DNA from: Niabella soli DSM 19437
GTDB taxonomy: Bacteria; Bacteroidota; Bacteroidia; Chitinophagales; Chitinophagaceae
DNA: 64,000 nt
Reading direction: 5' to 3'
Assembly (NCBI RefSeq): GCF_000243115.2
Contig: NZ_CP007035.1
Location: forward strand, 3,596,001 to 3,660,000
Both the position numbers and the translations under genes were made by a program. Below are positions 23,444-44,931 of this stretch, piece by piece. The notes beneath the pieces were generated by a model. The model was not told where the DNA came from. It saw only the letters and a program-made list of their open reading frames with translations, and did not search any database. The number at the start of each line of letters is the position of its first letter. Position 1 is the first letter of the stretch.

Positions 23444-23842
23444 TTAAAATTTATACCCGATGCCGGCGCCCACATTCCATTTTCCATTTGCGGCGGCAGT
23501 CTTTGCATTATAGTATAAAGGCATCTGTAATACCAGGTGCTTGTAGGAAGCGCTGAGCCCAAAACCTAATGAAGGAGTAAGGGTTGTATTTTCAGTAGCG
23601 TTATTCGCCACCTTGTCCTCTTTAATACGCAGGGAAGGCAGCATACCCAGGCTGATGCAAAACGGCTTATGGGCCCATTTGACGGCAGGCCCTCCAAAGT
23701 TGACAAAAGCCCCGTGGTCTGCATACCCGGCTACGGCCATTCCATCCCATAAAGAAGCAGCAGTTTGTGCCTGCGCGGACATTCCTTTTGAAAATACCAG
23801 CACTGTAATGATTGCAAAAAGTTTATATTTTTTCTTGTTCAT
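23444..23842 (-). CDS. Small exported protein in the nir operon, unknown function
   Basis: A 132-residue protein with a signal peptide (MNKKKYKLFAIITVLVFSKG then SAQAQ). Its mature part of about 105 residues alternates hydrophobic and polar residues and ends with an aromatic residue after glycine-rich strands (NVGAGIGYKF), like small outer-membrane beta-barrels. I do not recognise a family. The gene starts 20 bases inside the end of nirD and precedes the FNT channel by 74 bases, so it is cotranscribed with nitrite reduction. A role in outer-membrane passage of nitrate or nitrite would fit but is inference. Confidence 0.75.
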   Translation of the reverse strand: MNKKKYKLFAIITVLVFSKGMSAQAQTAASLWDGMAVAGYADHGAFVNFGGPAVKWAHKPFCISLGMLPSLRIKEDKVANNATENTTLTPSLGFGLSASYKHLVLQMPLYYNAKTAAANGKWNVGAGIGYKF

Positions 23843-24206
23843 GTGTTATAGTTGAGGACGATAAAACAGGAGTGGCATTGATGAAGACCGCACCGTTCTG
23901 TATTTTAACAGGATAGATTTTAATAGCGGCGCAGGCGTCATCATTCATGCAATGGCCGTCAATTAATGAAAAGGTTTTCTTATGAAAGGGGCAGGCTATT
24001 TTGGGTTGGCCCTGGCCGGAGCCCAACATACCCCTGCTGAGCGCCATTTGCTGGCGGTGCGGACAAAGATTCTGCGTGGCATACCATTCATCGCGATGCG
24101 TAAAATAATAAAGGGCTATTTGTTCAGTTCCATGTTGAATGCATACTCCGCCGTTATGGGGCATATCGGTTACATTACAGGCGTAGATCCAGCTATTTTC
24201 TGTCAT
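23823..24206 (-). CDS. nirD: Nitrite reductase small subunit (Rieske-type)
   Basis: A 127-residue Rieske [2Fe-2S]-fold protein that pairs with NirB for NAD(P)H-dependent nitrite reduction to ammonium in the cytoplasm. The two cluster motifs are present: CPHRQQM and, about 30 residues later, CPFHKKTF. In many NirD proteins these ligands are missing, but both pairs (C-x-H and C-x-x-H) are intact here. It lies 24 bases downstream of nirB, and its 3' end overlaps the start of the small exported protein. Confidence 0.92.
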   Translation of the reverse strand: MTENSWIYACNVTDMPHNGGVCIQHGTEQIALYYFTHRDEWYATQNLCPHRQQMALSRGMLGSGQGQPKIACPFHKKTFSLIDGHCMNDDACAAIKIYPVKIQNGAVFINATPVLSSSTITHEQEKI

Positions 24207-24230: not shown

Positions 24231-26717
24231 TTACCATGCGGCGGCTTTTTTCTGTTCGCGCAGCGTTTCAAAACTGATGGTAGGATCTTTTGTCTCCGGT
24301 GCATTGATAAAATGTGTGAAGCGTTTTCTTAACTCGGGCGTTTCAACTGCTTGCTTCCATTCGCATTCATAGTGGTCTACCAGGAACTGCATTTCCGTTT
24401 CCAATTCAGCGGCAATGCCCAGGCTGTCGTGCAGCACTACATTGCGCAGGTAGTCGATGCCGCCCTCCATCTTGTTCAGCCAGGTAGCGGTACGGGTAAG
24501 CGGGTCCGCGGTTTTTATATAGAACATTAAAAAACGGTCGATATATTTAATGCAGGTAGCTGAATCTACATCGGAGGCCAGCAATAACGCGTGCTGCGGC
24601 TTGGAACCGCCGTTGCCACATACAAAAAGGTTCCAGCCTTTTTCGGTGGCAATGATCCCAAAATCTTTCGACTGGGCTTCTGCGCATTCACGGATACAGC
24701 CGGACACGGCGGATTTGATCTTATGCGGGGCTCTTAACCCTTTGTATCGATTTTCAATTTCGATGGCGAAACTTACACTATCGTGCAACCCAAAGCGGCA
24801 CCAGGTGGAGCCCACACAGCTCTTTACCGTGCGCAACGCCTTCCCGTAAGCATGACCGCTTTCAAAACCGGCGGCGATCAGCTCCTCCCAGATTGCGGGC
24901 AGATCGTTGAGGTGCGCGCCAAAGAGGTCGATGCGCTGTCCGCCCGTGATCTTGGTGTACAGGTTGTATTTTTTGGCCACCTGGCCGATCGCGATCAGTT
25001 TATCCGGGGTGATCTCTCCACCCGGTACGCGGGGCACTACCGAATAGGTGCCGCCTTTCTGGATATTGGCCAAAAAGCGATCATTGGTATCCTGTGAAGT
25101 AGCATTCTCCTTTTTTATGATGAGGTCATTCCACAAGCTGGCCAGGATGGAACTTACGGCCGGGCGGCAGACTTCGCAGCCATCGCCGCTGCCAAGGGTA
25201 TCCAGCACTTCGTCGAAACTATGCAGGTTCTTTAGTTTTGCAAGATCATAAAGTTCCTGGCGGGAATAATTAAAGTGCTCGCAAATAACATTACGAACAA
25301 TTTTACCTTGTTTTTTTAATGTTGCTGTAATAATATCTTTCACCATCGGTGTACAACCACCACATCCGCTGCCGGCACCGGTGCATTTTTTCACTGCATC
25401 AAAAGATTCGTTCCCCTCGTTGACTGCCTCTGAAATAGCCAGTTTAGTTACTCCCTCACAACTGCAGATCAAGGCGGCATCGGGCAACTCAAAATTGCTT
25501 TCGGTTCCGCTGTCTTTGCCAGGCTTTACAATAAGATCTACCGGTGAAGGGGGGATGGCCAGTTTGTTTACGCAGATCTGTTGTAGCTGGTTATAGGCTT
25601 CGGCATCACCTACCAGTACGCCGCCCAGCAGGGTTTTGCCGTCATTGGAAACATTGATGCGTTTATAAACGCTGTTGTGATTATCATGGTAAATGATGGA
25701 GCGGGCGTCTTCATCTGCAATAAAAGGATCACCAAAACTGGCCACATCAATACCGATCAGCTTGAGCTTGGTGCTCATGTCAAACCCGGTAAAGGTTTTT
25801 GCGCCGCCGGTCAGTTTGTTTACTACTACTTCGGCCATATCATAGCCGGGCGCTACCAATCCGTAGACCATTCCTTCGTAAACGGCACACTCGCCAATAG
25901 CGTAAACCGATGGATCATTGGTTTGCATGTGCTCATTAACAATGACGCCGCCCCGGTGGCCCGTATGCAACCCGCATTTTTTTGCCAGCTCATCGCGGGG
26001 CTTAATACCCGCAGAGATCACCAGCATATCGGTACTTAAGAGGGTGCCATCCGCAAACATTAACCCGGTGATCGTTTCATTACCCAGTATTACGGCTGTA
26101 TTTTTAGTAGTGTGGGTGGTAATGCCCAGGGCTTTTAATTTCTGTGAAAGGATATAAGAGCCGCCCTCATCGATCTGCCGCGGCATCAGGCGGGGCGCAA
26201 ACTCTACCACATGGGTGTCTTTAATGCCCAGGTCCAGACAGGCTTTAGCGGCTTCCAGTCCCAGGAGGCCGCCACCGATCACGACTGCAGATTTAGCCAC
26301 TTTAGCATGCCGCCAGATCAGGTTCAGGTCTTCAATAGTACGGTATACAAACACCCCCTGCTTATCCACCCCGGAAATGGAGGGTACAAATGCAGCCGAC
26401 CCCGTGGCCAGCACCAGCCAGTCGTAAGAAAGCCGTCTGCCTTCAAAAGAGGTGATCGTTTTGTTGCTGCGGTCAATGTCTGTAACGGGATCGCCCAGGT
26501 GCAGGGTAATGCCATTTTCGGGATACCAGCTCATAGGCTTCATACAAAGATCCTGTACCGTTTTGCCTGCAAAATATTCGCTAAGATGCACCCGGTCATA
26601 AGCCGGCAGGGTTTCCTCTCCGAATACCGTGAGTTCCAGTTGTTCCGGCTTTTTAGCGATTAATTTCTCGCAAAATTTTTGGCCCACCATGCCATTTCCA
26701 ATAACAATCACCTTCAT
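24231..26717 (-). CDS. nirB: Assimilatory NAD(P)H nitrite reductase large subunit
   Basis: An 828-residue enzyme reducing nitrite to ammonium with six electrons from NAD(P)H. Domains in order: FAD/NAD module (about 1-400, including VVIGGGLLGLEAA), first BFD-like [2Fe-2S] domain (about 419-465, CSCEGVTK then CTGAGSGCGGC), a second similar Cys region (about 480-535, GCEVC), and a nitrite/sulfite reductase ferredoxin-like half (about 555-620). Next comes the siroheme/[4Fe-4S] part with CVGSTWC (about 634) and CIREC (about 672). All four siroheme cysteines are kept. The length is close to enteric NirB. It opens the nirB-nirD-small protein-FNT operon. Confidence 0.97.
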   Translation of the reverse strand: MKVIVIGNGMVGQKFCEKLIAKKPEQLELTVFGEETLPAYDRVHLSEYFAGKTVQDLCMKPMSWYPENGITLHLGDPVTDIDRSNKTITSFEGRRLSYDWLVLATGSAAFVPSISGVDKQGVFVYRTIEDLNLIWRHAKVAKSAVVIGGGLLGLEAAKACLDLGIKDTHVVEFAPRLMPRQIDEGGSYILSQKLKALGITTHTTKNTAVILGNETITGLMFADGTLLSTDMLVISAGIKPRDELAKKCGLHTGHRGGVIVNEHMQTNDPSVYAIGECAVYEGMVYGLVAPGYDMAEVVVNKLTGGAKTFTGFDMSTKLKLIGIDVASFGDPFIADEDARSIIYHDNHNSVYKRINVSNDGKTLLGGVLVGDAEAYNQLQQICVNKLAIPPSPVDLIVKPGKDSGTESNFELPDAALICSCEGVTKLAISEAVNEGNESFDAVKKCTGAGSGCGGCTPMVKDIITATLKKQGKIVRNVICEHFNYSRQELYDLAKLKNLHSFDEVLDTLGSGDGCEVCRPAVSSILASLWNDLIIKKENATSQDTNDRFLANIQKGGTYSVVPRVPGGEITPDKLIAIGQVAKKYNLYTKITGGQRIDLFGAHLNDLPAIWEELIAAGFESGHAYGKALRTVKSCVGSTWCRFGLHDSVSFAIEIENRYKGLRAPHKIKSAVSGCIRECAEAQSKDFGIIATEKGWNLFVCGNGGSKPQHALLLASDVDSATCIKYIDRFLMFYIKTADPLTRTATWLNKMEGGIDYLRNVVLHDSLGIAAELETEMQFLVDHYECEWKQAVETPELRKRFTHFINAPETKDPTISFETLREQKKAAAW

Positions 26718-26911: not shown

Positions 26912-27682
26912 ATGTCAAAACTGATCCTGGTAGGAGCTGGACCTGGCGATCCGGAGCTGATCACTTTAAAAGCGATTAAGGCCCTGGCGTCGGCTGATGT
27001 GGTGCTTTATGATGCGTTGGCAAATGATGCCCTGCTGCTTTATGCAAAAAAAGCGGCAGTGATGGAGTTTGTAGGCAAGCGCTTTGGCTGTCATGCCCTG
27101 AGCCAGTCGGAGATCAATGACCTGATCATCGGGATGGGCAGGCAATACGACACAATTGTGCGTTTAAAAGGTGGTGATCCCTTCGTGTTCGGGAGAGCCC
27201 AGGAAGAAATAGAAGCGGCAACCGCGGCCGCTATGGAAGTTACCATAGTACCCGGTATTTCCAGCGCGCTGGCGGTGCCTGCTTCACAAATGATCCCGGT
27301 TACCTGCAGGGGCGTAAATGAAAGTTTTTGGGTGGTTACCGGCACTACCTTATCCGGCGAATTGTCGAAGGATGTGGAGCTGGCGGCCCAATCATCCGCT
27401 ACCGTAGTATTATTAATGGCGATGAGCAAACTGGAGCAGATCGCTGATCTGTTTATGCGCTACGGAAAGGCGGAAACCCCGGTGGCGATTATCCAAAACG
27501 GAACGCTTCCCAACGCGGCAAGGGTAACCGGCAGCATAAAAGATATTGCTTACCGGGCACAACATGCAGGACTGGCCAATCCGGCCATTATTATCATTGG
27601 GGAAGTGGTGCGGCTGAACCGGGAGGTTGCAGAGAGAAAGATCATTGAACAGGTGGAGCAGCTTTTCATTGACGGAAAATAG
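26912..27682 (+). CDS. cobA: Uroporphyrinogen-III C-methyltransferase
   Basis: A 256-residue SAM-dependent methyltransferase converting uroporphyrinogen III to precorrin-2, the first step to siroheme. It has the tetrapyrrole-methylase signatures VGAGPGDPELITLKA (residues 7-21), VRLKGGDPFVFGRAQEE and VPGISSALAVPA. It is a single-domain SUMT, without the Met8/CysG dehydrogenase-ferrochelatase part, which must be supplied from outside the window. Divergence from nirB strongly suggests that it serves the nitrite reductase siroheme. Confidence 0.95.
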   Translation: MSKLILVGAGPGDPELITLKAIKALASADVVLYDALANDALLLYAKKAAVMEFVGKRFGCHALSQSEINDLIIGMGRQYDTIVRLKGGDPFVFGRAQEEIEAATAAAMEVTIVPGISSALAVPASQMIPVTCRGVNESFWVVTGTTLSGELSKDVELAAQSSATVVLLMAMSKLEQIADLFMRYGKAETPVAIIQNGTLPNAARVTGSIKDIAYRAQHAGLANPAIIIIGEVVRLNREVAERKIIEQVEQLFIDGK

Positions 27683-34574: not shown

Positions 34575-36923
34575 TCACAATTGATTGATCCGTTTATATA
34601 TTTCAGGGTCGTGTTTTTTTATCCTGATCTTTACATATTTTGATGCCGGCATATTACTTTCCTTTACCACATTATTGACAGAAACAAGCACATTGGTTTC
34701 GGGAAAATAGGTAACGGTGTTCCGCTCCGGTATCTGGTACGCTACAATAATGAATAGTGGCGCGATACGTTCGATGCCATCATCATAATTGAACAGGTCT
34801 ACCTTATCGCCGGCTTTAAATCCTGCCAGATCAATATCCTTTTGATTCATAAAGATCACCCGCCGCTCATTCTTTATCCCCCGGTACCGGTCGTCTAAAC
34901 CATAAATAGTAGTATTGAACTGATCATGCGTGCGCGTGGTGGCCATCATATATTCATCCGGAGCGAGCGTATTGTCTGGAACCGTAGTTAAGGTAAAAGG
35001 AGCACGATCACCAAATTGCTTTGTAAGGAACTGCCCGTCCCGTGCGGCATTGGGCAGGTAAAAACCATCTTTTTGCCGCACCCGCACATTGTAATTTTCA
35101 AACCCGGGGATGCATTTTTCAATAGCATCCCTAACAGCATCATAGCTATCATGATATAGCTGCCAGTTCACCACAGTTTTGTTACCGAGCGTTGCCATCG
35201 CCATGCGGCAGGCGATCTGCGTTTCATTAATAAGATGATCTGATACCGGTTTCAGCACCCCTTTTGAGGATTGTACCACGCCCATTGAATTCTCCGTGCT
35301 TACGATCTGGTGGGTGCCATTTACCCTATCAATATCGCTGCGCGAGAGGGTGGGTAGTATGATCGCCTCTTTCCCGTGGATCAGGTGGCTCCTGTTTAGT
35401 TTGGTAGAAACAAAAACGGTCAGATTTAATTTTCTCAACGCCTGTGCGGTGTAGGTGGTGTCCGGCGTGGCCGACAAAAAATTTCCCCCCATGCAAAAAA
35501 GGAATTTTACTTTTCCCTCCTGCATGGCTTTAATAGCCCGTACCACGTCATACCCGTGTTTGCGCGGCGGGTTGAACCCAAAAAAGTGTTGCAGCCGGTC
35601 GAGCTGCTCATCGGTGGGTTTTTCATCTATGAGCATGGTACGGTTACCCTGTACATTGCTATGGCCCCGCACCGGACAAACGCCAGCGCCGGGTTTGCCG
35701 ATGCTTCCTTTCAACAACAGCAGGTTGAGGATCTCTTTGATCATATCCACCCCATTGGGTTGTTGCGTAAGCCCCATTCCCCAGCATACGATAATCCGTT
35801 TTTTAAATGCCATCATTTGCGCTGCTTCATACAATAAAGCCGCTGAAACACCAGAAGCGGTTGCCAGCTCCTCCAGGTTATACGCTTCAAATTGCTTAAG
35901 GAACACTTCGTACCCCGTAGTCTTTTCTCCGATGAATGCATGATCGAGAACCTCTCCCGGCGATTTCTTTTCAAAATCGAGCAGCAACAACTCAAGGGCC
36001 TTTAGCAAGGCCATATCCCCATTGATCTTCACCGGCAGGTATAAATCAGCCAGCTTTATGCCATTACCAATGATGCCACTTATTTGCTGAGGGTTATGAA
36101 AACCCAACAATCCTGCTTCGGGCAGGGGGTTGATGGCTATGATCTTAGCCCCGTTCTTTTTCCCTTTTTCCAGTGCGCTCATCATCCGGGGTGCATTGGT
36201 ACCGGGGTTTTGCCCGATGATTATGATCACATCGGTATCATAAAAATCTTCCAGCTTTACCGTGCCCTTTCCGATCCCGATCGTAGGGCGCAAGGCCGTA
36301 CCGGAGGTTTCGTGGCACATATTGGAACAATCGGGCATATTATTGGTGCCATATTCTTTTGCAAAGAGTTGATACATAAACGAAGCTTCGTTGCTCGTTC
36401 TTCCGGAAGTATAAAACGCCGCTTCATCAGGCGTAGCTAATGCATTGAGGTGCGCCGCAATTTTTTTGAAAGCATCGTCCCAACTGATCGGCTGATAGTG
36501 CGTGCCATTTTGCGGCATATACATAGGTTCCGTCAGCCGGCCCATTTTACCAATGGAGTAATCATCCAGTTGGGCAAGATCATAAACCGAGTTTTCTTTA
36601 AAAAACTCCGCGGTGATCTTTTTGGTAGTGGCTTCTTCCGCCAATGCTTTTGCTCCGTTTTCGCAATACTCACCCAGGGGAGACCGCTCGTCATCCGGAT
36701 CGGGCCAGGCACAGCTCGGGCAATCGAAACCACCCACCTGGTTCATTTTAAACAAGGCCCTTGTGCCCCGTATCAATGTCTTCTCTCCAATAAGGTCACT
36801 AACGGCGGCCATTACTGCGGGCACTCCGGCAGCCCATTTTTCCACCTTTGTCAATTTCAGGTCCAGGAGTTTGTATGGATTCTCCGGATCGGGTAGGTGC
36901 TTGTTATTACTATCTTTTTCCAT
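34575..36923 (-). CDS. FdhF/YdeP-family molybdopterin oxidoreductase
   Basis: A 782-residue molybdopterin enzyme of the YdeP branch of formate-dehydrogenase-like proteins. The N-terminal cluster region reads FDCPSCAWPDPDDERSP, with fewer cysteines than classic FdhF. The Mo/MGD domains follow (YTSGRTSNEASFMYQLFAKE, CSNMCHETSG, VIIIGQNPGTNAPRMM), and a C-terminal aspartate-decarboxylase-like domain includes TTRTHDQFNTTIYGLDDRYRG. It has no signal peptide. YdeP-type enzymes are linked to acid or redox stress in enterics, but the substrate is unknown. FdhD, needed to sulfurate such enzymes, is encoded just upstream. Confidence 0.88.
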   Translation of the reverse strand: MEKDSNNKHLPDPENPYKLLDLKLTKVEKWAAGVPAVMAAVSDLIGEKTLIRGTRALFKMNQVGGFDCPSCAWPDPDDERSPLGEYCENGAKALAEEATTKKITAEFFKENSVYDLAQLDDYSIGKMGRLTEPMYMPQNGTHYQPISWDDAFKKIAAHLNALATPDEAAFYTSGRTSNEASFMYQLFAKEYGTNNMPDCSNMCHETSGTALRPTIGIGKGTVKLEDFYDTDVIIIIGQNPGTNAPRMMSALEKGKKNGAKIIAINPLPEAGLLGFHNPQQISGIIGNGIKLADLYLPVKINGDMALLKALELLLLDFEKKSPGEVLDHAFIGEKTTGYEVFLKQFEAYNLEELATASGVSAALLYEAAQMMAFKKRIIVCWGMGLTQQPNGVDMIKEILNLLLLKGSIGKPGAGVCPVRGHSNVQGNRTMLIDEKPTDEQLDRLQHFFGFNPPRKHGYDVVRAIKAMQEGKVKFLFCMGGNFLSATPDTTYTAQALRKLNLTVFVSTKLNRSHLIHGKEAIILPTLSRSDIDRVNGTHQIVSTENSMGVVQSSKGVLKPVSDHLINETQIACRMAMATLGNKTVVNWQLYHDSYDAVRDAIEKCIPGFENYNVRVRQKDGFYLPNAARDGQFLTKQFGDRAPFTLTTVPDNTLAPDEYMMATTRTHDQFNTTIYGLDDRYRGIKNERRVIFMNQKDIDLAGFKAGDKVDLFNYDDGIERIAPLFIIVAYQIPERNTVTYFPETNVLVSVNNVVKESNMPASKYVKIRIKKHDPEIYKRINQL

Positions 36924-37042: not shown

Positions 37043-37927
37043 TTACCGGTTACTAACTTCTTCTGCCACCGGCATCTTTACCCTTTCACTCAAATGATAA
37101 ATATTAAAACGGCTCTCTTTCAAAAACCCTAAAAGCGTAATATCAAATTCTTTTGCAAGGTCCACCGCCAGGCTTGACGGAGCTCCGATAGCAGCCACTA
37201 CTGCAATGCCGGCCATGGCGGCTTTCTGGATCAATTCAAAACTTGCCCTTCCGCTGAGCAATAAAATATGTTGGCTCAGTGGCAACAGATCACTTATCAA
37301 TGCACTGCCGATCAGTTTATCCAATGCATTATGCCGGCCCACATCTTCGCGCAGCAACAGCAACTCCCCATCAATAGTAAAAAGGCCCGAAGCATGGATA
37401 CCCCCGGTAGCAGCAAAGCCGCTCTGAGCCGCTCTAAGCTTTCCCGGTAATTGATACAGTGTGTCCGGCACAAGTGTTAAGTAAGACCGGTCTGATTTGC
37501 TAAAAGGACTTACTGTTTTAATCGATTGGATGGAACTTTTTCCGCATACACCACAACTGGAAGTGGTATAAAAATTCCGGTCGGACTGCTGCAGTTGCGG
37601 TATACAATTTTCATTGAGCGCTACTTGTATTATATGCTGACCGGGCAGTGAACGTTCCATTCCCTCTTGATCAGGATCTTCTATATCCCGGCGGGAACCA
37701 ATGATCCCTTCGGTAAATAAAAACCCCGCCGCCAGTTCCCGATCATTTCCCGGTGTGCGCATCGTAACAGAAATATTTTTCTGTTCCCGCATTGCCAACG
37801 GGCCATAGCTGATGCTGATCTCCAATGGCTCTTCTACGGACAACAGGTCTGAAAATAATGAACTGACGGAACCGTTTACGCGCTGCACCGGCACTTGTTT
37901 CGCGGAAGCTGATTGTAGACCCTCCAT
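37043..37927 (-). CDS. fdhD: Formate dehydrogenase accessory sulfurtransferase
   Basis: A 294-residue FdhD, which passes sulfur from IscS to the Mo centre of formate-dehydrogenase-like enzymes. The Cys motif SSCGVCGKSS (the functional CxxC) lies near residue 125, followed by GGIHASGLFTIDGELLLLREDVGRHNALDKLIG and a C-terminal helix-rich half. It lies upstream of the YdeP-type oxidoreductase on the same strand, separated by an inverted repeat, which suggests that enzyme as its client. Confidence 0.94.
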   Translation of the reverse strand: MEGLQSASAKQVPVQRVNGSVSSLFSDLLSVEEPLEISISYGPLAMREQKNISVTMRTPGNDRELAAGFLFTEGIIGSRRDIEDPDQEGMERSLPGQHIIQVALNENCIPQLQQSDRNFYTTSSCGVCGKSSIQSIKTVSPFSKSDRSYLTLVPDTLYQLPGKLRAAQSGFAATGGIHASGLFTIDGELLLLREDVGRHNALDKLIGSALISDLLPLSQHILLLSGRASFELIQKAAMAGIAVVAAIGAPSSLAVDLAKEFDITLLGFLKESRFNIYHLSERVKMPVAEEVSNR

Positions 37928-38009: not shown

Positions 38010-38597
38010 ATGCTGGGAGTTGTTTTATGCGGCGGGCAAAGTACCCGTATGGGCAGCGACAAAGGGCTGCTGCCACTGGAGGCGCAAACATGGGCACAGA
38101 CGGCTGTTAACAAATTTATTCTGCTGCAATTACCGGTTCGCATCTCTGTAAATGCCGCACAACAAGCAGCATATGCACAGGTATTTGATTCCACATTCCT
38201 GGTTACAGACAACAACACCATCCGGGTAAAGGGCCCCCTGCTGGGATTATTAAGCGTACACCTGCAGTATCCTGATGAAGACCTGTTCGTACTCGCCTGT
38301 GATATGCCGTTAATGGATCCTTCATTACTCAAAGAACTTTACCAGGCTTTTAGCCCGCAAAAAGCAGACGCTTTTGTTTTTATAAATGCCGGGGCGCCGG
38401 AACCGCTTTGTGGCATTTATACGGCCGCAGGGTTACAAACGATACTGAACCGGGCAAAAAGAAAGGAGTTGCAGCAATTCAGCATGAAATATGTGCTGGA
38501 ACAATTCAAAACCAGTACCATCCCGATCCGTGACGATCAACAACCCAGCTTCCGGAATTTTAATACACATACGGAACTAAACGGACTGCAGGCCTAA
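38010..38597 (+). CDS. mobA: Molybdenum cofactor guanylyltransferase
   Basis: A 195-residue MobA, which converts Mo-molybdopterin to the bis-MGD form that the nitrate reductase and YdeP-type enzymes need. It carries GVVLCGGQSTRMGSDKGLLPL with the nucleotide-binding loop, LLSVHLQYPDEDLFVLACDMPL and EPLCGIYTAAG. It is the only Moco gene on the + strand of this island, divergent from fdhD. Its last 21 bases overlap the 3' end of the rubredoxin-domain gene in convergent orientation. Confidence 0.94.
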   Translation: MLGVVLCGGQSTRMGSDKGLLPLEAQTWAQTAVNKFILLQLPVRISVNAAQQAAYAQVFDSTFLVTDNNTIRVKGPLLGLLSVHLQYPDEDLFVLACDMPLMDPSLLKELYQAFSPQKADAFVFINAGAPEPLCGIYTAAGLQTILNRAKRKELQQFSMKYVLEQFKTSTIPIRDDQQPSFRNFNTHTELNGLQA

Positions 38598-40067
38598 TGA
38601 TGCTTTTTTAATCTCTATAAAATCCGGTTTACCCGACTCGCACAAAGGGCACGCGTAGGTTTCCGGTAATGCTTCAAATGCGGTTCCTGCTGCGATACGA
38701 TTTCCGGGATCTCCGGTATGACGGTCGTATACCGTCAGGCAATTTTTACATTGATGCACCCATTCTTCTTTTTGTACTATAGCTATATCCTTTGGCACAT
38801 CAATGGTGTGAGGCAGTACCGTATTGTTCCTGCTGGTTTTATAGAAATCAAAAACCGAATTCCGCAATGCCCGCCCCAACAGAAACTTCGGCTTATTGCG
38901 ACTAAATACAAATCCTGTTCGCTCATTAGGATTGTACGCCTGCGCGCAAAGAATATCATAAAGATAAAATAAGGCTTTACCCCACAATGCAATAACAGGC
39001 TTACGTTTTACCAGTATGCTGCTAAACACTTCGCTTTTATTTCTGGTTTTTATACCGATGCATAGGCCAAAAGTCCGGGTATCCTGATCGTTTAATTTCT
39101 TTACCAGATATTGTTTTAATGCCGTCGCTTCCCTGTTGCCATCCTCTACCTGAAAATTCAATTCATTAGCGGCATGACGCATATTCAATGCATGCATATT
39201 CAGCAGGTCGGTCCATAAGTGTTTGTCTCTTTCCTCAATGCCTTTTACGATAATGCTTTTCCATGGCGTGGAGCAGAGCTGACCAATCTTTGTCTGCAGG
39301 CAGATCTGGCAAAGGTCTTTTAAAAATGCGATGGAAAACAGTTCATCCCGCCGGTATACGCCCAACCAGTATTTATTGTTATGCCGGTGCAATCCTTCGT
39401 AATATGGCAGGTTAAACTGGGGTAATAATGCCGGATGAACTGCTTTCTTTGTAATGAACTGTTCTTTTTTTATTCGGCTGAAAAGCACCTCCCCACTGGC
39501 ATCTGGCTGATCGTAAAACAGGTGTTTGTTGTTTAAGATCTGTGCCTCCAGTTCCTTCGAGAATCTCGGAATATCATTGGTGTAGAGCAGTTCATCCCAT
39601 TCGTAAATAATGTTGGTTTTTGGAAAACGAACAAACAAATGCCAGAAATGGGGAGACCCGGCAGTTGCCACCCAGTTGATATTGCCCGTTAACGAAGGAG
39701 TAAAACTCTGGTTGCTGTCGCAGATATTAACCTTGAGCCGGGGGATATGATCCATTTCATCAAAAATGTCTTTGTATACTCCTTCACTCAGCCACGTATG
39801 CATAATGAAAATATCTTCCGCAGGGTAGGAGCTGATTATGTTCGGAAAATGATCGGTATCAATTTCATATAAGATCCCAGCACGGCGCAACTGATCTTCA
39901 AGTGCTGCCCCCTGTTTTTTAGTGCCGCTGATCAGGAGTTGCTGCCGCAGTCCGAAACACACCTGCTCTATGCCCGTGCCTTCTGTGATGGAAAGGACCT
40001 GATGCAGGTCGCCCGGCGAAATGATGCCGCCGCGGAAATTGATTTTTATGGTAACCGGTGTGCTCAT
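38577..40067 (-). CDS. Rubredoxin-domain protein with degenerate nitrite-reductase-like part
   Basis: A 496-residue, cytoplasmic, two-part protein. The N-terminal part begins with a ferredoxin-like half-domain of the nitrite/sulfite reductase type (INFRGGIISPGDLHQVLS, then CFGLRQQLLISG). Where NirB has the siroheme CxxxC this protein has NICDSNQSF, and I find no C-x5-C partner, so siroheme binding is unlikely. A cluster of Cys (CQICLQTKIGQLC) lies near 252-265. The C-terminus (about 436-485) is a complete rubredoxin: CKNC, the GDPGNRIAAGT loop and CPLC. Its start overlaps the nitrate reductase stop as ATGA, so the two are coupled. The likely role is electron transfer to the nitrate reductase; that is inference. 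Confidence 0.8.
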   Translation of the reverse strand: MSTPVTIKINFRGGIISPGDLHQVLSITEGTGIEQVCFGLRQQLLISGTKKQGAALEDQLRRAGILYEIDTDHFPNIISSYPAEDIFIMHTWLSEGVYKDIFDEMDHIPRLKVNICDSNQSFTPSLTGNINWVATAGSPHFWHLFVRFPKTNIIYEWDELLYTNDIPRFSKELEAQILNNKHLFYDQPDASGEVLFSRIKKEQFITKKAVHPALLPQFNLPYYEGLHRHNNKYWLGVYRRDELFSIAFLKDLCQICLQTKIGQLCSTPWKSIIVKGIEERDKHLWTDLLNMHALNMRHAANELNFQVEDGNREATALKQYLVKKLNDQDTRTFGLCIGIKTRNKSEVFSSILVKRKPVIALWGKALFYLYDILCAQAYNPNERTGFVFSRNKPKFLLGRALRNSVFDFYKTSRNNTVLPHTIDVPKDIAIVQKEEWVHQCKNCLTVYDRHTGDPGNRIAAGTAFEALPETYACPLCESGKPDFIEIKKASLGLQSV

Positions 40068-43000
40068 ACGAATTGGGGGCTGGGCAAAGCGGGCTGCTCC
40101 TTTTTAATAGTTGTTATTGTTTCCAGTATTTGTTTTACCTCGGGGCGGCAACTGCCACAGCCCATGCCTGCGCCCGTAAGCTGGCAAAGCTGCAGGTGAT
40201 CTTTACATCCTTCTTTAATCTTATTAACAAGATTGCCTTCCCCCACATTATTACAACTGCAAACCAGCTTTCCTATTACGGGCTCCTGCATCTTGCCCGA
40301 TCGCAGCAACTGCAGCCGTTTTTCACTGAGCTCTGTTTTGCCTTCAATTAAAGAACGGTATTCCAGAAATTCATTTTTATCCCCGATCAAAATAGCGCCC
40401 ACCAGGCGGTCGTTATGAATGATGCATTTTTTATAAAAGCGCTTGGCCTTGTCGATAAACACCACTTCTTCATAGGCCGGGTCGTCAGGACATTCCGTAA
40501 CGCCCAGTGAGCACAGATCCGTTCCGTGCATTTTTAAAATATTCATCAGCAGGGAGCCGGTATAAAACCGGGCAATATCCCCGTTGAGGTATTGCGCTAC
40601 AATTTCCGCCTGCTGTTCAGCGGCCGCAGTAATACCGTAAAGCATGCCTTTAAATTCAGCTATTTCACCAATGGCGAAAATGTTTGGATCATTGGTCTGT
40701 AAATAGTCATCCACAATGACCCCTCTGCGGCAGCTCAATCCGCAGGTTTTGGCCAGTTCAATATTGGGTATCGTGCCAATGGCAAATACAATTGCCTGGC
40801 ATTGAATAAAACGGCCGCTTTTCAGGCGTATGCCATCAATAACACCAGTGCCGGTGAAGCGCTCTATCTCATCATTAAAATACAGTTCCACACCTTTATC
40901 GGCCAATTCTTCCTGGAGCAACTGGCTACCCAGGGGATCGAGCTGGCGGTCCATTAAGCGGGAGGAGCGATGCAACAAGATCGCTTCCGTACTTGCTTCG
41001 CGTAAAGAAGCTGCCAACTCCACTCCTAACAAGCCGCCGCCTACAATGACCACTTTTCCTCTCGTGGGCGCTAAATGGTTTTTAAAGGCATCTGCATCTG
41101 TCCTGCTGCGCATGGTAAAAATACCTTTTATTGGGGGAACCTCTTTTAACAATGCAGCACGGCTCCCCGTAGCCAGGATGAGTATATCATAATGATGCAG
41201 CGATCCGTTAGTATCCGTGACGGTTTTGGCTTCCCGGTCGATAGCTGTAATGCTTACGCCTCTGTGCAGTTTGATGCGATACTCCGCTTCTTCTTCGCTG
41301 CTCATTTTGACAAGGTTGCTCCATTGAAGCGTACCCGTAATATAATCCGGCAACAGCACGCGGTTATAAAAAGGGTGATTTTCTTTGCTGAATACTTCAA
41401 TCGTATCTTCAGCATTAAGCTGCCGATAACTTTTTACAAAACCACAGGCGCCCGCACCTGCGCCGATCACAATGATCTTTTGTTTTGGTTTCTGGTAGCG
41501 GTACACGGCCACGGCCGAGAATTTAAAATCCGGTTCCTTGCTTTTAGGGTCTACCAAATTATTGGTGAGATTGTTGGCCCTGTTGCCGTCTTTACCCAAG
41601 ATTTTGCCCCAATGCATGGGTAAAAAAACGACCCCCTGTTTGATGGTGTCGGACAGTCTGGCTTTTATACGTACTTCGCCGCGCCTGCTTTTTATTACTA
41701 CCAGGTCGTTTTCTTTTATCTGACGCGGTGTGGCGTCTTCAGGATGTATTTCTAAAAACGACTCGGAAATATGTTGCTTCAGTTTATTTACTTTTCCGGT
41801 CTTGCTCATGGTATGCCACTGATCGCGGATGCGGCCCGTGGTAAGGATCAACGGATAATCGGGTGATGGCGTTTCAGAATGATTGTCGTCCGGGAACGAG
41901 TGGATCTGCGCCCGGTGAGATGTCGTGTAGAATTGATGGTCTTCAAAAAGCCGGGAGGTACCCTGCTTTCCGGCGGCCTCGGTAAACGGCCATTGCACGC
42001 TGCGGCGCGCTTTCAGCAACTCGTAATTCAGCGCGCTGATATCCATACGTGTTCCAGCCGTTAGTGCGCCATGTTCATTAAAAATTGCTGCTGTATTTTC
42101 AAAATCAAAACCGGTAAATCCCATTTTTTGAGCAAAGCGACAAAGTATTGTGGCATCGGGCAATGCTTCTCCCGGTGCTTCCATGATCTTATTCAGATAG
42201 CTGATGCGGCGTTCTGCATTGGTCATGGTGCCCTCTTTCTCCGTCCAGGCAGCGGCCGGCAATACCACATCCGCGTATGCCAGGGTTTCGGGTTTATTGC
42301 TGATCTCCTGCACCACTACAAATTTTGCTTTCTTCAGTGCGGCTTCCGCCTTGCGGACGTCGGGCAAACTAATAAGCGGATTGGTACAAAGGATCCAGAT
42401 CGCTTTCAGCCGCCCGTCTTCGAGTGCATCAAACATTTCTGTAGCGGTGAGACCGGGTTTGTCTGAAATGGTGCCAGGCCTTATTCCCCAAAAATCTTCT
42501 ACCTCCCGGCGGTGCTGTACGTTAAGCAGGTCCCGATGCGCCGGCAACAGATTACTTAAGCCCCCTACTTCGCGGCCACCCATAGCATTAGGCTGACCGG
42601 TTAAAGACAAAGGGCCGGAGCCGGGTTTGCCAATATGCCCGGTGATAAGGTTGAGGTTGATAAGCGAGAGGTTCTTATTCACGCCCACCACACTCTGATT
42701 GAGGCCCATCGTCCATAGCGTCATGAATCCGCGGGCCCGGCCAATATAATCAGCCACTTGCCTGATGGCTTCTTCTTCAACGCCGCAGACCTGTGCCGCT
42801 TCGGCAATGGTCTTTGAAAAAACCTGCTTCCGGTATTGAGCAAATCCTTCCGTATGATCGTTGACAAAATCTGCGTCGATGTATCCTTTTTCAATCAGTG
42901 CCCGCCCGATGGCATGATGCAGGGTAATATCCGTTCCGGGATGAAGCTGCAGGTGCACATCGGCTATGGAACAGGTCTGGGTTTTCCGGGGATCACTCAC

Positions 43001-43615
43001 AATGATCTTCAGGTCCGGATTGGTTTGCCGCGCTGCCTCCACCCGCCGCCATAAAACCGGATGGCACCAGGCCGGGTTGGCGCCGGCAACAAAAATAACA
43101 TCAGCCACCTCCAGGTCTTCATAACTCACCGGTACGCTGTCTTCCCCCAGGCTCATTTTGTAGCCCACCACCGCGCTGCTCATGCATAACCGGGAATTCG
43201 TATCGATATTATTACTGCCGATGTAGCCTTTTATCAGTTTGTTTACAATGTAGTATTCCTCGGTAAGACATTGGCCGGAGGCATAAAAAGCCACCGAGTC
43301 AGGCCCGTATTTATCGATAAGTGTTCTAAATACTGCAGCGGTTCGTTCCAATGCCATTTCCCATGAAACCCGCTGCCGCGGCAGGTTGCGACTATAACGC
43401 ATTTCGGGGTACAGCAACCGGTCGCTGTAATCGTTCACGGTATAATGGAGGTTCATTCCCTTACTGCAAAGCATGCCTTTGTTAACCGGATAGTCTTTAT
43501 CACCTTCCACCTGCAGCCGCCCCAGTTGATCCTTATGCGCCACAATGCCACAACCCACGCCGCAATAGCAGCAGGTTGTAGTATTATTTTCATGAGCATT
43601 GATTGGGTGATGCAT
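40064..43615 (-). CDS. Assimilatory nitrate reductase fused to FAD/NAD and BFD [2Fe-2S] modules
   Basis: A 1183-residue fusion that should reduce nitrate to nitrite in the cytoplasm. The N-terminal molybdopterin part (about 1-700) has the [4Fe-4S] ligands Cys15, Cys18, Cys22 and Cys50 and the Mo-ligand Cys at about 143 in SRLCMSS, as in NasA/NapA enzymes. From about residue 713 a pyridine-nucleotide-disulfide type module follows (IVIGAGAGACGF, then VVIVGGGLLGVELAASL), like the front of NirB. The end (about 1118-1165) is a BFD-like [2Fe-2S] domain (CSCNNVGEG, CQLTGAGMGCGSC). In NasAB systems the flavin module is usually a separate protein. There is no signal peptide. It follows the narK-type gene by 11 bases. 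Confidence 0.93.
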   Translation of the reverse strand: MHHPINAHENNTTTCCYCGVGCGIVAHKDQLGRLQVEGDKDYPVNKGMLCSKGMNLHYTVNDYSDRLLYPEMRYSRNLPRQRVSWEMALERTAAVFRTLIDKYGPDSVAFYASGQCLTEEYYIVNKLIKGYIGSNNIDTNSRLCMSSAVVGYKMSLGEDSVPVSYEDLEVADVIFVAGANPAWCHPVLWRRVEAARQTNPDLKIIVSDPRKTQTCSIADVHLQLHPGTDITLHHAIGRALIEKGYIDADFVNDHTEGFAQYRKQVFSKTIAEAAQVCGVEEEAIRQVADYIGRARGFMTLWTMGLNQSVVGVNKNLSLINLNLITGHIGKPGSGPLSLTGQPNAMGGREVGGLSNLLPAHRDLLNVQHRREVEDFWGIRPGTISDKPGLTATEMFDALEDGRLKAIWILCTNPLISLPDVRKAEAALKKAKFVVVQEISNKPETLAYADVVLPAAAWTEKEGTMTNAERRISYLNKIMEAPGEALPDATILCRFAQKMGFTGFDFENTAAIFNEHGALTAGTRMDISALNYELLKARRSVQWPFTEAAGKQGTSRLFEDHQFYTTSHRAQIHSFPDDNHSETPSPDYPLILTTGRIRDQWHTMSKTGKVNKLKQHISESFLEIHPEDATPRQIKENDLVVIKSRRGEVRIKARLSDTIKQGVVFLPMHWGKILGKDGNRANNLTNNLVDPKSKEPDFKFSAVAVYRYQKPKQKIIVIGAGAGACGFVKSYRQLNAEDTIEVFSKENHPFYNRVLLPDYITGTLQWSNLVKMSSEEEAEYRIKLHRGVSITAIDREAKTVTDTNGSLHHYDILILATGSRAALLKEVPPIKGIFTMRSRTDADAFKNHLAPTRGKVVIVGGGLLGVELAASLREASTEAILLHRSSRLMDRQLDPLGSQLLQEELADKGVELYFNDEIERFTGTGVIDGIRLKSGRFIQCQAIVFAIGTIPNIELAKTCGLSCRRGVIVDDYLQTNDPNIFAIGEIAEFKGMLYGITAAAEQQAEIVAQYLNGDIARFYTGSLLMNILKMHGTDLCSLGVTECPDDPAYEEVVFIDKAKRFYKKCIIHNDRLVGAILIGDKNEFLEYRSLIEGKTELSEKRLQLLRSGKMQEPVIGKLVCSCNNVGEGNLVNKIKEGCKDHLQLCQLTGAGMGCGSCRPEVKQILETITTIKKEQPALPSPQFV

Positions 43616-43626
43616 AATGAACCGGC

Positions 43627-44931
43627 TTATGAAACAATAGGTTTTAACGTTGTGGTGGCTGATGCGGTCGCCCGCTGTTTTGCAAAACGGGTAAATAAAA
43701 TAATAAATGCTGCTGCGATGACCATAAACCCGATATAACTAAATGCTTCTGCATAACTGATGGTTTCGCTTTTGAATAAAAAGCCAAACAACATACCGCC
43801 GATATTACCGCCTGCGCCCACGATACCACTGATCAGGCCTACATTTTTCGTATTGATAAAAGGAGTCATCGCATAGGTAGCGCCGTTCACCATTTTCAGG
43901 AACAAAGCAAAACTGATCATGGAGACGATAGCCAGTGGCAGCGAACCGGCTTTTGCAAATAGTGCAAGACCGATCCCCTCCAGGAGCAGCATTGCGGCTA
44001 AAAAGAGGCCCTTGCCCCTTATGCCGTATTTACGGCCGATCTTATCGGCAAAAATGCCCCCCAGCGCTCTTGCGAAAAGGTTCATCATGCCAAACATACC
44101 CGCCCAGAAGCCGGCAGCAGCTTGGCTCAGATTAAAGTTTTGTGTAAAATGAAGCGCCGCCACATTATCAAAAGTGATTTCCATACCAAAACCCATGGCA
44201 TATGCCAGGCTCAGCGCCCAGATCCGTCTGTCTTTTAAAACGCTGTAATCTGTTTTAGTACGTACCGCCGGTTGCGCCCGCTGCATTTCATCATAGTTAC
44301 CAGCCGGTGTGTCCTTAGTAAAGCGATAATACAACAATGCGGCAACCAGCATCAGACCGCCCGGCAGGATCATTGCATAACGCCAGGCCTCCTGTTGGGT
44401 ATAACCAAAGCCCACAATGACCGAAAATAACAGCGGCATCACCATGTTGGTTACCCCGCCGCCCAGGTTGCCCCAGCCACCCGCCACCGCATTTGCCGTG
44501 CCCTTGATGTTGGATGCAAACATGACGGATGTATGAAATTGTGTGATCACAAAGGAAGCACCGATGATGCTTATCGCCAGACGAAAGAAAAGAAAAGAAG
44601 TATAGTCTTTGGCCAGGCCCACACACAGGACCGGAATCGCCCCGATGAGCAGCAAGGCTGTATAGGTTTTGCGGGGCCCCCAGGTATCGCAAAGTTTGCC
44701 AATGACCAGGCGGGCTATAATGGTACCCGATACCGATGCGATAACGATATTACCGATCTGCGATTTGGTTAAATGCAGGTTTTCTTTAATGGTCGGCATC
44801 AACGGGGCCAGGCCAAACCACCCGAAAAAACAAATAAAAAAAGTAAGCCAGGTAATATGAAACGTGCGCATTTGCACGCTTTTTATGGAGAAGATATTGA
44901 GTTTAGACAATGGTAAGGGAGTCTCGGCCAT
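43627..44931 (-). CDS. NarK/NasA-type nitrate/nitrite MFS transporter
   Basis: A 434-residue, 12-segment transporter of the nitrate/nitrite porter family. The nitrate signature is visible in segment 5 (GGWGNLGGGVTNMVMPLL), with the loop motif GKLCDTWGPRKTY between segments 2 and 3 and a second glycine-rich signature (GIVGAGGNIGGMLFG) in segment 11. It opens the nitrate operon (transporter, fused nitrate reductase, rubredoxin protein) and imports nitrate, possibly in exchange for nitrite. Confidence 0.93.
   Translation of the reverse strand: MAETPLPLSKLNIFSIKSVQMRTFHITWLTFFICFFGWFGLAPLMPTIKENLHLTKSQIGNIVIASVSGTIIARLVIGKLCDTWGPRKTYTALLLIGAIPVLCVGLAKDYTSFLFFRLAISIIGASFVITQFHTSVMFASNIKGTANAVAGGWGNLGGGVTNMVMPLLFSVIVGFGYTQQEAWRYAMILPGGLMLVAALLYYRFTKDTPAGNYDEMQRAQPAVRTKTDYSVLKDRRIWALSLAYAMGFGMEITFDNVAALHFTQNFNLSQAAAGFWAGMFGMMNLFARALGGIFADKIGRKYGIRGKGLFLAAMLLLEGIGLALFAKAGSLPLAIVSMISFALFLKMVNGATYAMTPFINTKNVGLISGIVGAGGNIGGMLFGFLFKSETISYAEAFSYIGFMVIAAAFIILFTRFAKQRATASATTTLKPIVS

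Follow-up and report, generated by a model that had tools for sequence, protein, structure and literature searches.

A pseudo-nitrite-reductase–rubredoxin protein is probably a dedicated component of nitrate assimilation in Bacteroidota

What does a rubredoxin joined to a nitrite-reductase-like domain do beside a nitrate reductase? The question is raised by a gene at 38577..40067 (minus strand) of a 64,000-nucleotide stretch of the Niabella soli DSM 19437 genome (contig NZ_CP007035.1, positions 3,596,001 to 3,660,000; hereafter, the window). Its intact open reading frame (ORF) encodes a pseudo-nitrite-reductase–rubredoxin protein of 496 amino acids (aa), here named RbxNiR. The start codon (40067-40065) shares four bases (ATGA) with the stop of the ORF for a fused nitrate reductase of the NADH (reduced nicotinamide adenine dinucleotide) type, NasFused (40064..43615, minus strand), just as a preliminary description of the locus had reported. 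Domain matches and co-occurrence identify NasFused as a 1,183-aa enzyme that combines a molybdopterin nitrate reductase, a NirB-like flavin adenine dinucleotide (FAD)/NADH module (Pyr_redox_2 and Rubredoxin_C in the domain search) and one BFD [2Fe-2S] domain. The window also encodes an intact siroheme nitrite reductase large subunit, NirB (24231..26717, minus strand), whose domain matches comprise an FAD module, two BFD domains, NIR_SIR_ferr and NIR_SIR, and in which both Cys motifs are present by sequence reading. Next to it lies a 127-aa NirD-like Rieske protein (23823..24206, minus strand; PF13806, E 5.8e-27). The N. soli genome, a single 4.7-Mb contig, holds one RbxNiR match; given 61 aligned homologues and recurrent linkage, RbxNiR is more than a chance ORF. 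Because it occurs with NasFused and NirB, RbxNiR is probably the dedicated third component of an NADH-dependent nitrate-to-ammonium system of Bacteroidota, consisting of NasFused, NirBD and RbxNiR.

This proposal draws on two genome samples, one of 395 Bacteroidota genomes (phylum sample) and one of 147 genomes (family sample). In the former, a full RbxNiR body was found in 29 genomes, 28 with the rubredoxin and one (G070) without it; matches in 38 other genomes were rubredoxins only, confined to the last ~50-110 residues. NasFused, scored at ≥1,000 aligned residues, was found in 33 genomes, and NirB in 28, which are exactly the 28 with a rubredoxin-bearing RbxNiR; these span 8 families and all have NasFused. 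The match between RbxNiR and NirB (28/28 both ways) is thus tighter than that between RbxNiR and NasFused (28/33). Five genomes (G359, G193, G153, G295 and G319) have NasFused with neither RbxNiR nor NirB, and each carries a NirA-like reductase with Cys motifs near NasFused. By sequence reading, flavodoxin-like and FNR-like ORFs adjoin this locus in L163, L164 and L166 and an FNR-like ORF alone in L165, while neither was resolved beside it in L167; L165 also has a globin gene (PF00042; L165:5504-5950) beside NasFused.

The family sample gave a similar distribution. An RbxNiR relative was present in 32 genomes, 26 with a rubredoxin and 6 with solely rubredoxin-less genes. All 25 genomes with NasFused fall within the 26; in the remaining one (G025), RbxNiR directly follows a PF09655 gene close to the start of a contig. 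The partnership with the fused nitrate reductase suggested in the preliminary description therefore holds in 28 of 33 NasFused genomes of the phylum and in 25 of 25 of the family. In the 33 genomes searched for them, NIR_SIR frames as long as NirB (831-859 aa) were found in 25 of the 26 rubredoxin-bearing genomes, the sole miss being a genome that is 83% complete (G048), and in none of the 6 rubredoxin-less ones.

We then considered gene order at 60 loci outside the window: 52 bear the rubredoxin and 8 lack it. At 49/52 rubredoxin-bearing loci, NasFused precedes RbxNiR on the same strand, within 600 bases in 47, of which 11 overlap. An intervening gene belongs to PF09655 in L035, L036 and L044 and is a 269-aa ORF in L154. 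The exceptions are one locus cut by a contig end (L037) and L049 and L050, second rubredoxin-bearing copies away from NasFused in related genomes (G009 and G109) that also have a linked copy. Close linkage alone is insufficient to explain the match between RbxNiR and NirB, because NirB is on a separate contig in some genomes (G330 and G294). Across 1,128 pairs, median identity was 36% for the RbxNiR body, 48% for the rubredoxin, 63% for the molybdenum (Mo) part of NasFused and 54% for its FAD/BFD part, with pairwise identities of the RbxNiR body and the Mo part correlating at 0.90.

The N-terminal body (aa 5-416; 38820..40055, minus strand) is most likely a full two-repeat relative of nitrite and sulfite reductases (NiR/SiR), because of a 395-column profile alignment together with its NIR_SIR_ferr stretches. 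In RbxNiR itself, the better of two NIR_SIR_ferr stretches (aa 6-51; E 0.0038, 17.4 bits) is under the curated Pfam cut-off of 24. Of 37 aligned members, 36 matched the domain at E up to 1, the best at 1e-10. Of six other homologues scanned singly, five exceeded the cut-off and showed two stretches, while the sixth (L042) fell below it and showed one. Aligning a profile of 44 RbxNiR homologues with one of 12 SiR/NirA sequences in hhalign gave 395 columns (E 1.4e-7, probability 94%), pairing RbxNiR 5-416 with SiR 72-541; when columns followed the first row, E was 1.1e-6 locally and 6.6e-10 globally. The signal was weaker against SiR alone (E 0.0018, probability 15%), and a narrower first profile gave E 0.0094 against SiR alone and 0.23 against a HEPN-tailed NiR alone. 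A NiR/SiR of 709 aa that ends in a HEPN domain (PF05168; L091:1138-3264) is encoded in the same genome as the rubredoxin-less gene L042, from which it is divergent. Listed matches from sequence searches of the PDB (best 60 of 63, 69 and 68 matches) were confined to the rubredoxin part, and an AlphaFold run from two sequences gave no usable fold (mean predicted local distance difference test score 29.9). The kinship to NiR/SiR put forward in the preliminary description is supported, whereas its view of the body as an N-terminal half-domain is not, since the body is co-linear with full-length NiR/SiR.

RbxNiR resembles the siroheme enzymes of this class (NirA, SiR hemoprotein and the C-terminal half of NirB; PF03460 and PF01077) in its two-repeat order, its ~410 residues, a GG and RQ motif (R41), an FKI/LKI strand (K112) and a T267-K270 strand opposite the SiR TxNQ. 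Unlike them, it lacks the Cys ligands, and the Fe-S domain PF01077 was matched in 0/37 aligned members at E up to 1. None of the four siroheme-[4Fe-4S] ligands (C-x5-C and C-x3-C) appears among the Cys-rich columns of the RbxNiR alignments, and the cysteines of RbxNiR itself (positions 37, 116, 253, 256, 265, 336, 374, 440, 443, 473 and 476) include no C-x5-C, as had been remarked before. SiR C429 and C478 lie opposite gaps, C435 opposite L303 (posterior 0.26) and C474 opposite R342 (0.22), which places the lost loops around aa 298-303 and 341-346, with posteriors of only 0.2-0.3. In these alignments the loss of the ligands is firm, while the exact residue opposite each cysteine is not; loss of siroheme would follow from the lost ligands. 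The preliminary description was thus right about the missing Cys ligands but misplaced the expected siroheme site, as NICDSNQSF comes just after the K112 strand of the first repeat. We rejected a role for RbxNiR as the main nitrite reductase because an intact NirB is encoded both in the window and by each of the 28 RbxNiR genomes found in the phylum. An NrfA-type enzyme (PF02335) was also rejected as a substitute: its matches, in 4 of 33 family genomes, were partial (≤78 of 438 positions), although three reached or exceeded the cut-off.

The body has nevertheless kept more than a decaying domain would, to judge by its alignment. SiR R108 corresponds to R41 (posterior 0.996), K209 to K112 (0.91) and T385 to T267 (0.99), while R144 is replaced by P75 (0.63), K207 by R110 (0.69) and Q388 by K270 (0.99). 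We take R108, R144, K207 and K209 to correspond to the basic substrate-site residues R83, R153, K215 and K217 of the E. coli enzyme, of which two are thus kept and two replaced; those aligned with R41 and K112 presumably belong to the siroheme/substrate site. R41 is kept in 61/61 homologues and K112 in 56/61. Invariant in all 61 are R41, Q42, W92, Q120, N131, E224, G225, W234, Y238, R240, K270, E302 and K318, some of which, such as K270, have no counterpart in SiR; N295 and H298 each vary once.

The C-terminal rubredoxin domain (aa 438-483; 38619..38756, minus strand) matches PF00301 with 58.5 bits (E 6.8e-16) against a cut-off of 23. Its four metal cysteines (CKNC...CPLC) are kept in 53/53 rubredoxin-bearing homologues, including three (L060, L066 and L154) in which the stretch between the pairs is shortened to 8-15 residues. 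The glycines usual after each pair are replaced by Leu and Glu in RbxNiR. Across the 53 homologues, Gly never follows the first pair, where an ungapped list shows Leu in 32 and Phe in 9, and it follows the second in just 5, against 35 with Glu; the three solved rubredoxins compared have Gly at both positions. What had been called a complete rubredoxin is therefore complete in its cysteines and non-canonical in its second shell, and the missing glycines possibly reflect an altered potential or a structural metal site.

How might these two parts work together? We favour a mechanism, with a probability of roughly 0.38, in which the catalytically dead body docks the rubredoxin as an electron relay between NasFused and NirB, by analogy with NasG of Paracoccus denitrificans. 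The body would have kept the NiR/SiR surface that receives an electron donor, and would use it to dock on the FAD-[2Fe-2S] module, which is homologous in NasFused and NirB. The tethered rubredoxin would accept single electrons from one FAD module and pass them either into the Mo/[4Fe-4S] part or on to the partner reductase, such that electrons from NADH would be shared by nitrate and nitrite reduction and accumulation of nitrite avoided. The relay is favoured because the metal cysteines are invariant, the partner FAD modules are of the rubredoxin-reductase type and NasG offers a precedent. The three-way co-occurrence, the placement of NasFused upstream of RbxNiR and the correlated divergence of the two also count in its favour. 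PF18267, the rubredoxin-reductase C-terminal domain, is found on the FAD modules of both NasFused and NirB, and we take it that reductases of this type, such as NorW, feed rubredoxins elsewhere. The fast evolution of the body relative to NasFused (36% versus 63% and 54% median identity) might also fit an adaptor. A more elaborate proposal, which we think unlikely, is that the NiR fold without its catalytic centre forms a hub joining the NADH-dependent nitrate and nitrite reductases of Bacteroidota in one complex, where electrons would be shared and nitrite perhaps channelled; the rubredoxin would have a modified second shell, and the remodelled pocket would still take up an anion or a tetrapyrrole, which would act as a control signal.

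Several observations weigh against a relay. The redox chain of NasFused is, by its sequence, complete without RbxNiR: the [4Fe-4S] cysteines (15/18/22/50) and BFD cysteines (1119/1121/1153/1156) are kept in 48/48 enzymes from RbxNiR loci, and in the enzymes from RbxNiR-less genomes the BFD cysteines are kept in 5/5 and the N-terminal ones in 4/5, the fifth probably being L167, whose N-terminus does not align. The idea that RbxNiR acts as a wire in place of some cofactor that NasFused lacks is accordingly unsupported, redox cysteines being equal with and without RbxNiR bar this one unaligned N-terminus. A candidate carrier of the NasG kind is already available in NirD; the NasG ferredoxin itself we take to be of Rieske type. 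The missing second-shell glycines could point to a structural metal site, and the invariant residues are more numerous than a mere docking scaffold would require. The five genomes with NasFused only belong to other families, which means that ancestry is confounded with function, and the three-way co-occurrence is partly inherited linkage. Finally, a Nonomuraea plasmid record contains a fused nitrate reductase (33% identity) with no RbxNiR match.

A further difficulty comes from the rubredoxin-less homologues (L039, L040, L041, L042, L043, L045, L046 and L047), which measure ~420-430 aa from the conserved start and lie away from nitrate genes. None of the eight is linked to NasFused; two are near contig ends, in genomes (G070 and G043) where NasFused gave no match. 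They form a single clade with 100/100 support, nested among members from the same family in a midpoint-rooted tree, making one loss of the rubredoxin the simplest reading. Six of the eight hosts lack NasFused and NirB-length frames, one of the hosts (G019) having no NIR_SIR match at all, while G100 and G141 also carry a linked gene. A clade that apparently dropped the rubredoxin, left the operon and kept the body suggests that the body is useful without a rubredoxin, and, judging by those six hosts, it apparently serves some purpose other than nitrate, for which any mechanism has to allow.

The main rival, possible if doubtful, is that RbxNiR is a maturation factor that helps NasFused to fold or to acquire its Mo cofactor or [4Fe-4S] cluster, standing in for a NarJ-type protein, with the rubredoxin holding a metal or sensing redox state. 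The NarJ/TorD family (PF02613) was found in 0/28 RbxNiR genomes and in 2/5 NasFused-only genomes, which agrees with such a replacement, but the other 3 of those 5 have neither RbxNiR nor PF02613; nor is PF02613 among the Pfam matches of RbxNiR or of 36 aligned relatives. The slot does host accessory genes. PF09655, a nitrate-reductase-associated family that we take to be NarM of cyanobacteria, occurs in 4/61 genomes, always directly before RbxNiR: three times between RbxNiR and NasFused (L035:2819-3334, L036:8505-9008 and L044:6458-6976) and once at a contig start (L037:68-580). It is like RbxNiR in being an accessory gene, and unlike it in belonging to another Pfam family; as the two coexist, it is no replacement. 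A body without catalytic cysteines yet strongly conserved at many polar residues would also suit a maturation factor, and NarJ matures NasC in Paracoccus, where the authors allow for further chaperones in the available text (PMC6618116). Such a factor would not need a rubredoxin, and would not account for a match to NirB (28/28) tighter than that to NasFused (28/33). The NirB match, together with the absence of NirB from all five NasFused-only genomes, could instead indicate a siroheme carrier or insertion factor for NirB, in which the NiR shape would hold siroheme without a Cys ligand and pass it on. The conservation of R41 and K112 is in line with this, as is the presence of tetrapyrrole synthesis genes (named by sequence reading) beside the rubredoxin-less homologue L042 and of cobA beside the Hymenobacter cluster. 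We nonetheless regard it as distinctly improbable, given that RbxNiR sits beside the nitrate reductase while NirB can be on another contig, that rubredoxin-less homologues occur in six genomes without a NirB-length NIR_SIR frame, including one with no NIR_SIR match, and that the rubredoxin would have no role.

The invariant charged and polar residues, some not common to SiR, also allow RbxNiR to be imagined as an active enzyme, whose remodelled pocket (R41, K112, K270, R297, H298, E302, K318 and others) would bind an N-oxide such as nitrite, nitric oxide or hydroxylamine, or another ligand, and receive electrons from the rubredoxin. The globin gene of L165, with a possible function in nitric oxide handling in an RbxNiR-less genome, would fit. 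We consider this rather improbable, as the body shows no recognisable set of metal ligands and C253 and C256, kept in 56 and 59 of 61 homologues, are dispensable in some; the pocket formed by the invariant residues is itself putative. At the other extreme, RbxNiR might be an ordinary rubredoxin that carries the remnant of a decayed NiR and has no particular function, as the rapid evolution of the body and the annotation of two relatives as rubredoxin might suggest. This is scarcely credible in view of the many invariant body residues and of a well-supported clade that lost the rubredoxin and retained the body, although searches with the body as the query cannot judge whether the body is ever lost. 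An electron relay thus remains our preferred account of RbxNiR.

Upstream of NasFused is a NarK-family nitrate/nitrite transporter (43627..44931, minus strand; TIGR00886, 318.6 bits against a cut-off of 311.7). A convergent MobA-like molybdenum cofactor guanylyltransferase (38010..38597, plus strand), named by sequence reading and a frequent neighbour, overlaps the 3' end of RbxNiR, and a uroporphyrinogen-III methyltransferase for siroheme synthesis, also named by reading, is at 26912..27682 (plus strand); an annotated cobA adjoins the same cluster elsewhere. A molybdopterin oxidoreductase (34575-36923) and an FdhD-family protein (37043-37927) lie between the nitrate cluster and Mo-cofactor genes. 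The closest named relative of RbxNiR in a close-relative scan of genome contigs was from a Niabella metagenome-assembled genome (82% identity); there, upstream of position 8001 of L001, the NasFused homologue is in two ORFs of 939 and 241 aa, possibly through a sequencing error or a genuine break.

Beyond Bacteroidota, the analysis covered plasmid, phage and viral records and that one scan of genome contigs. Four plasmid-borne relatives with ≥80% query coverage were found, all from Bacteroidota (Hymenobacter, Spirosoma and two Persicobacter) and all beside a fused nitrate reductase; the fifth record with a fused enzyme is that of Nonomuraea, whose gene table is empty. Viral contigs contained no RbxNiR relative, and phage records none for most of the body. 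Two of the nitrate clusters (L173 and L176) are on plasmids typed as non-mobilizable, from Spirosoma oryzicola, for which nirB is listed, and Hymenobacter volaticus, for which nirD is listed and nirB does not appear in an incomplete gene table.

NCBI labels the Spirosoma and Hymenobacter proteins (two records) simply 'rubredoxin', and a species description places a rubredoxin, perhaps RbxNiR, in a nitrate-assimilation operon of Aquirufa (PMC12528234). We found no functional account of RbxNiR in the accessible, mostly non-subscription literature, and a narrow search for siroheme-reductase pseudoenzymes returned no paper. RbxNiR may be a near-obligatory element of nitrate assimilation that has been missed across a large phylum, masked by its plain annotation, and its exact match with NirB permits a clear genetic test.

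Known systems offer partial parallels. In the flavorubredoxin pair NorV/NorW, a C-terminal rubredoxin is served by a reductase of the family present in NasFused; the NorW model matches NasFused (E 1e-51) and the NorV model the RbxNiR rubredoxin (E 4.4e-8). The NorV body, presumably a flavodiiron protein, is not NiR-like. The closest printed architecture that we met is algal NIRFU, described in the accessible part of one report as a NiR–rubredoxin–ferredoxin reductase fusion in Micromonas, Ostreococcus and Bathycoccus, with reported homology to the ferredoxin-NiR of plants (53% identity with tomato NIR), and treated as a nitrite reductase (PMC5344333). As in RbxNiR, a NiR body is followed by a rubredoxin and partnered with a reductase module; unlike in the Niabella system, where this module is on the nitrate reductase, it is fused to the NiR, and the algal Cys ligands are assumed to be intact. 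In its presumed function, RbxNiR would resemble NasG of P. denitrificans, which in the available text is described as mediating electron flux from NasB to NasC and NasB (PMC4724949, PMC6618116). Like RbxNiR, NasG is a redox protein encoded with NADH-linked nitrate and nitrite reductases and proposed to distribute electrons between them, but it is a ferredoxin without a NiR body, and the NADH-oxidising site in Paracoccus is said to be in NasB rather than in the nitrate reductase. If RbxNiR does act as an electron hub, Bacteroidota would have arrived at a second, independent answer to the problem for which NasG is the proposed solution in Paracoccus.

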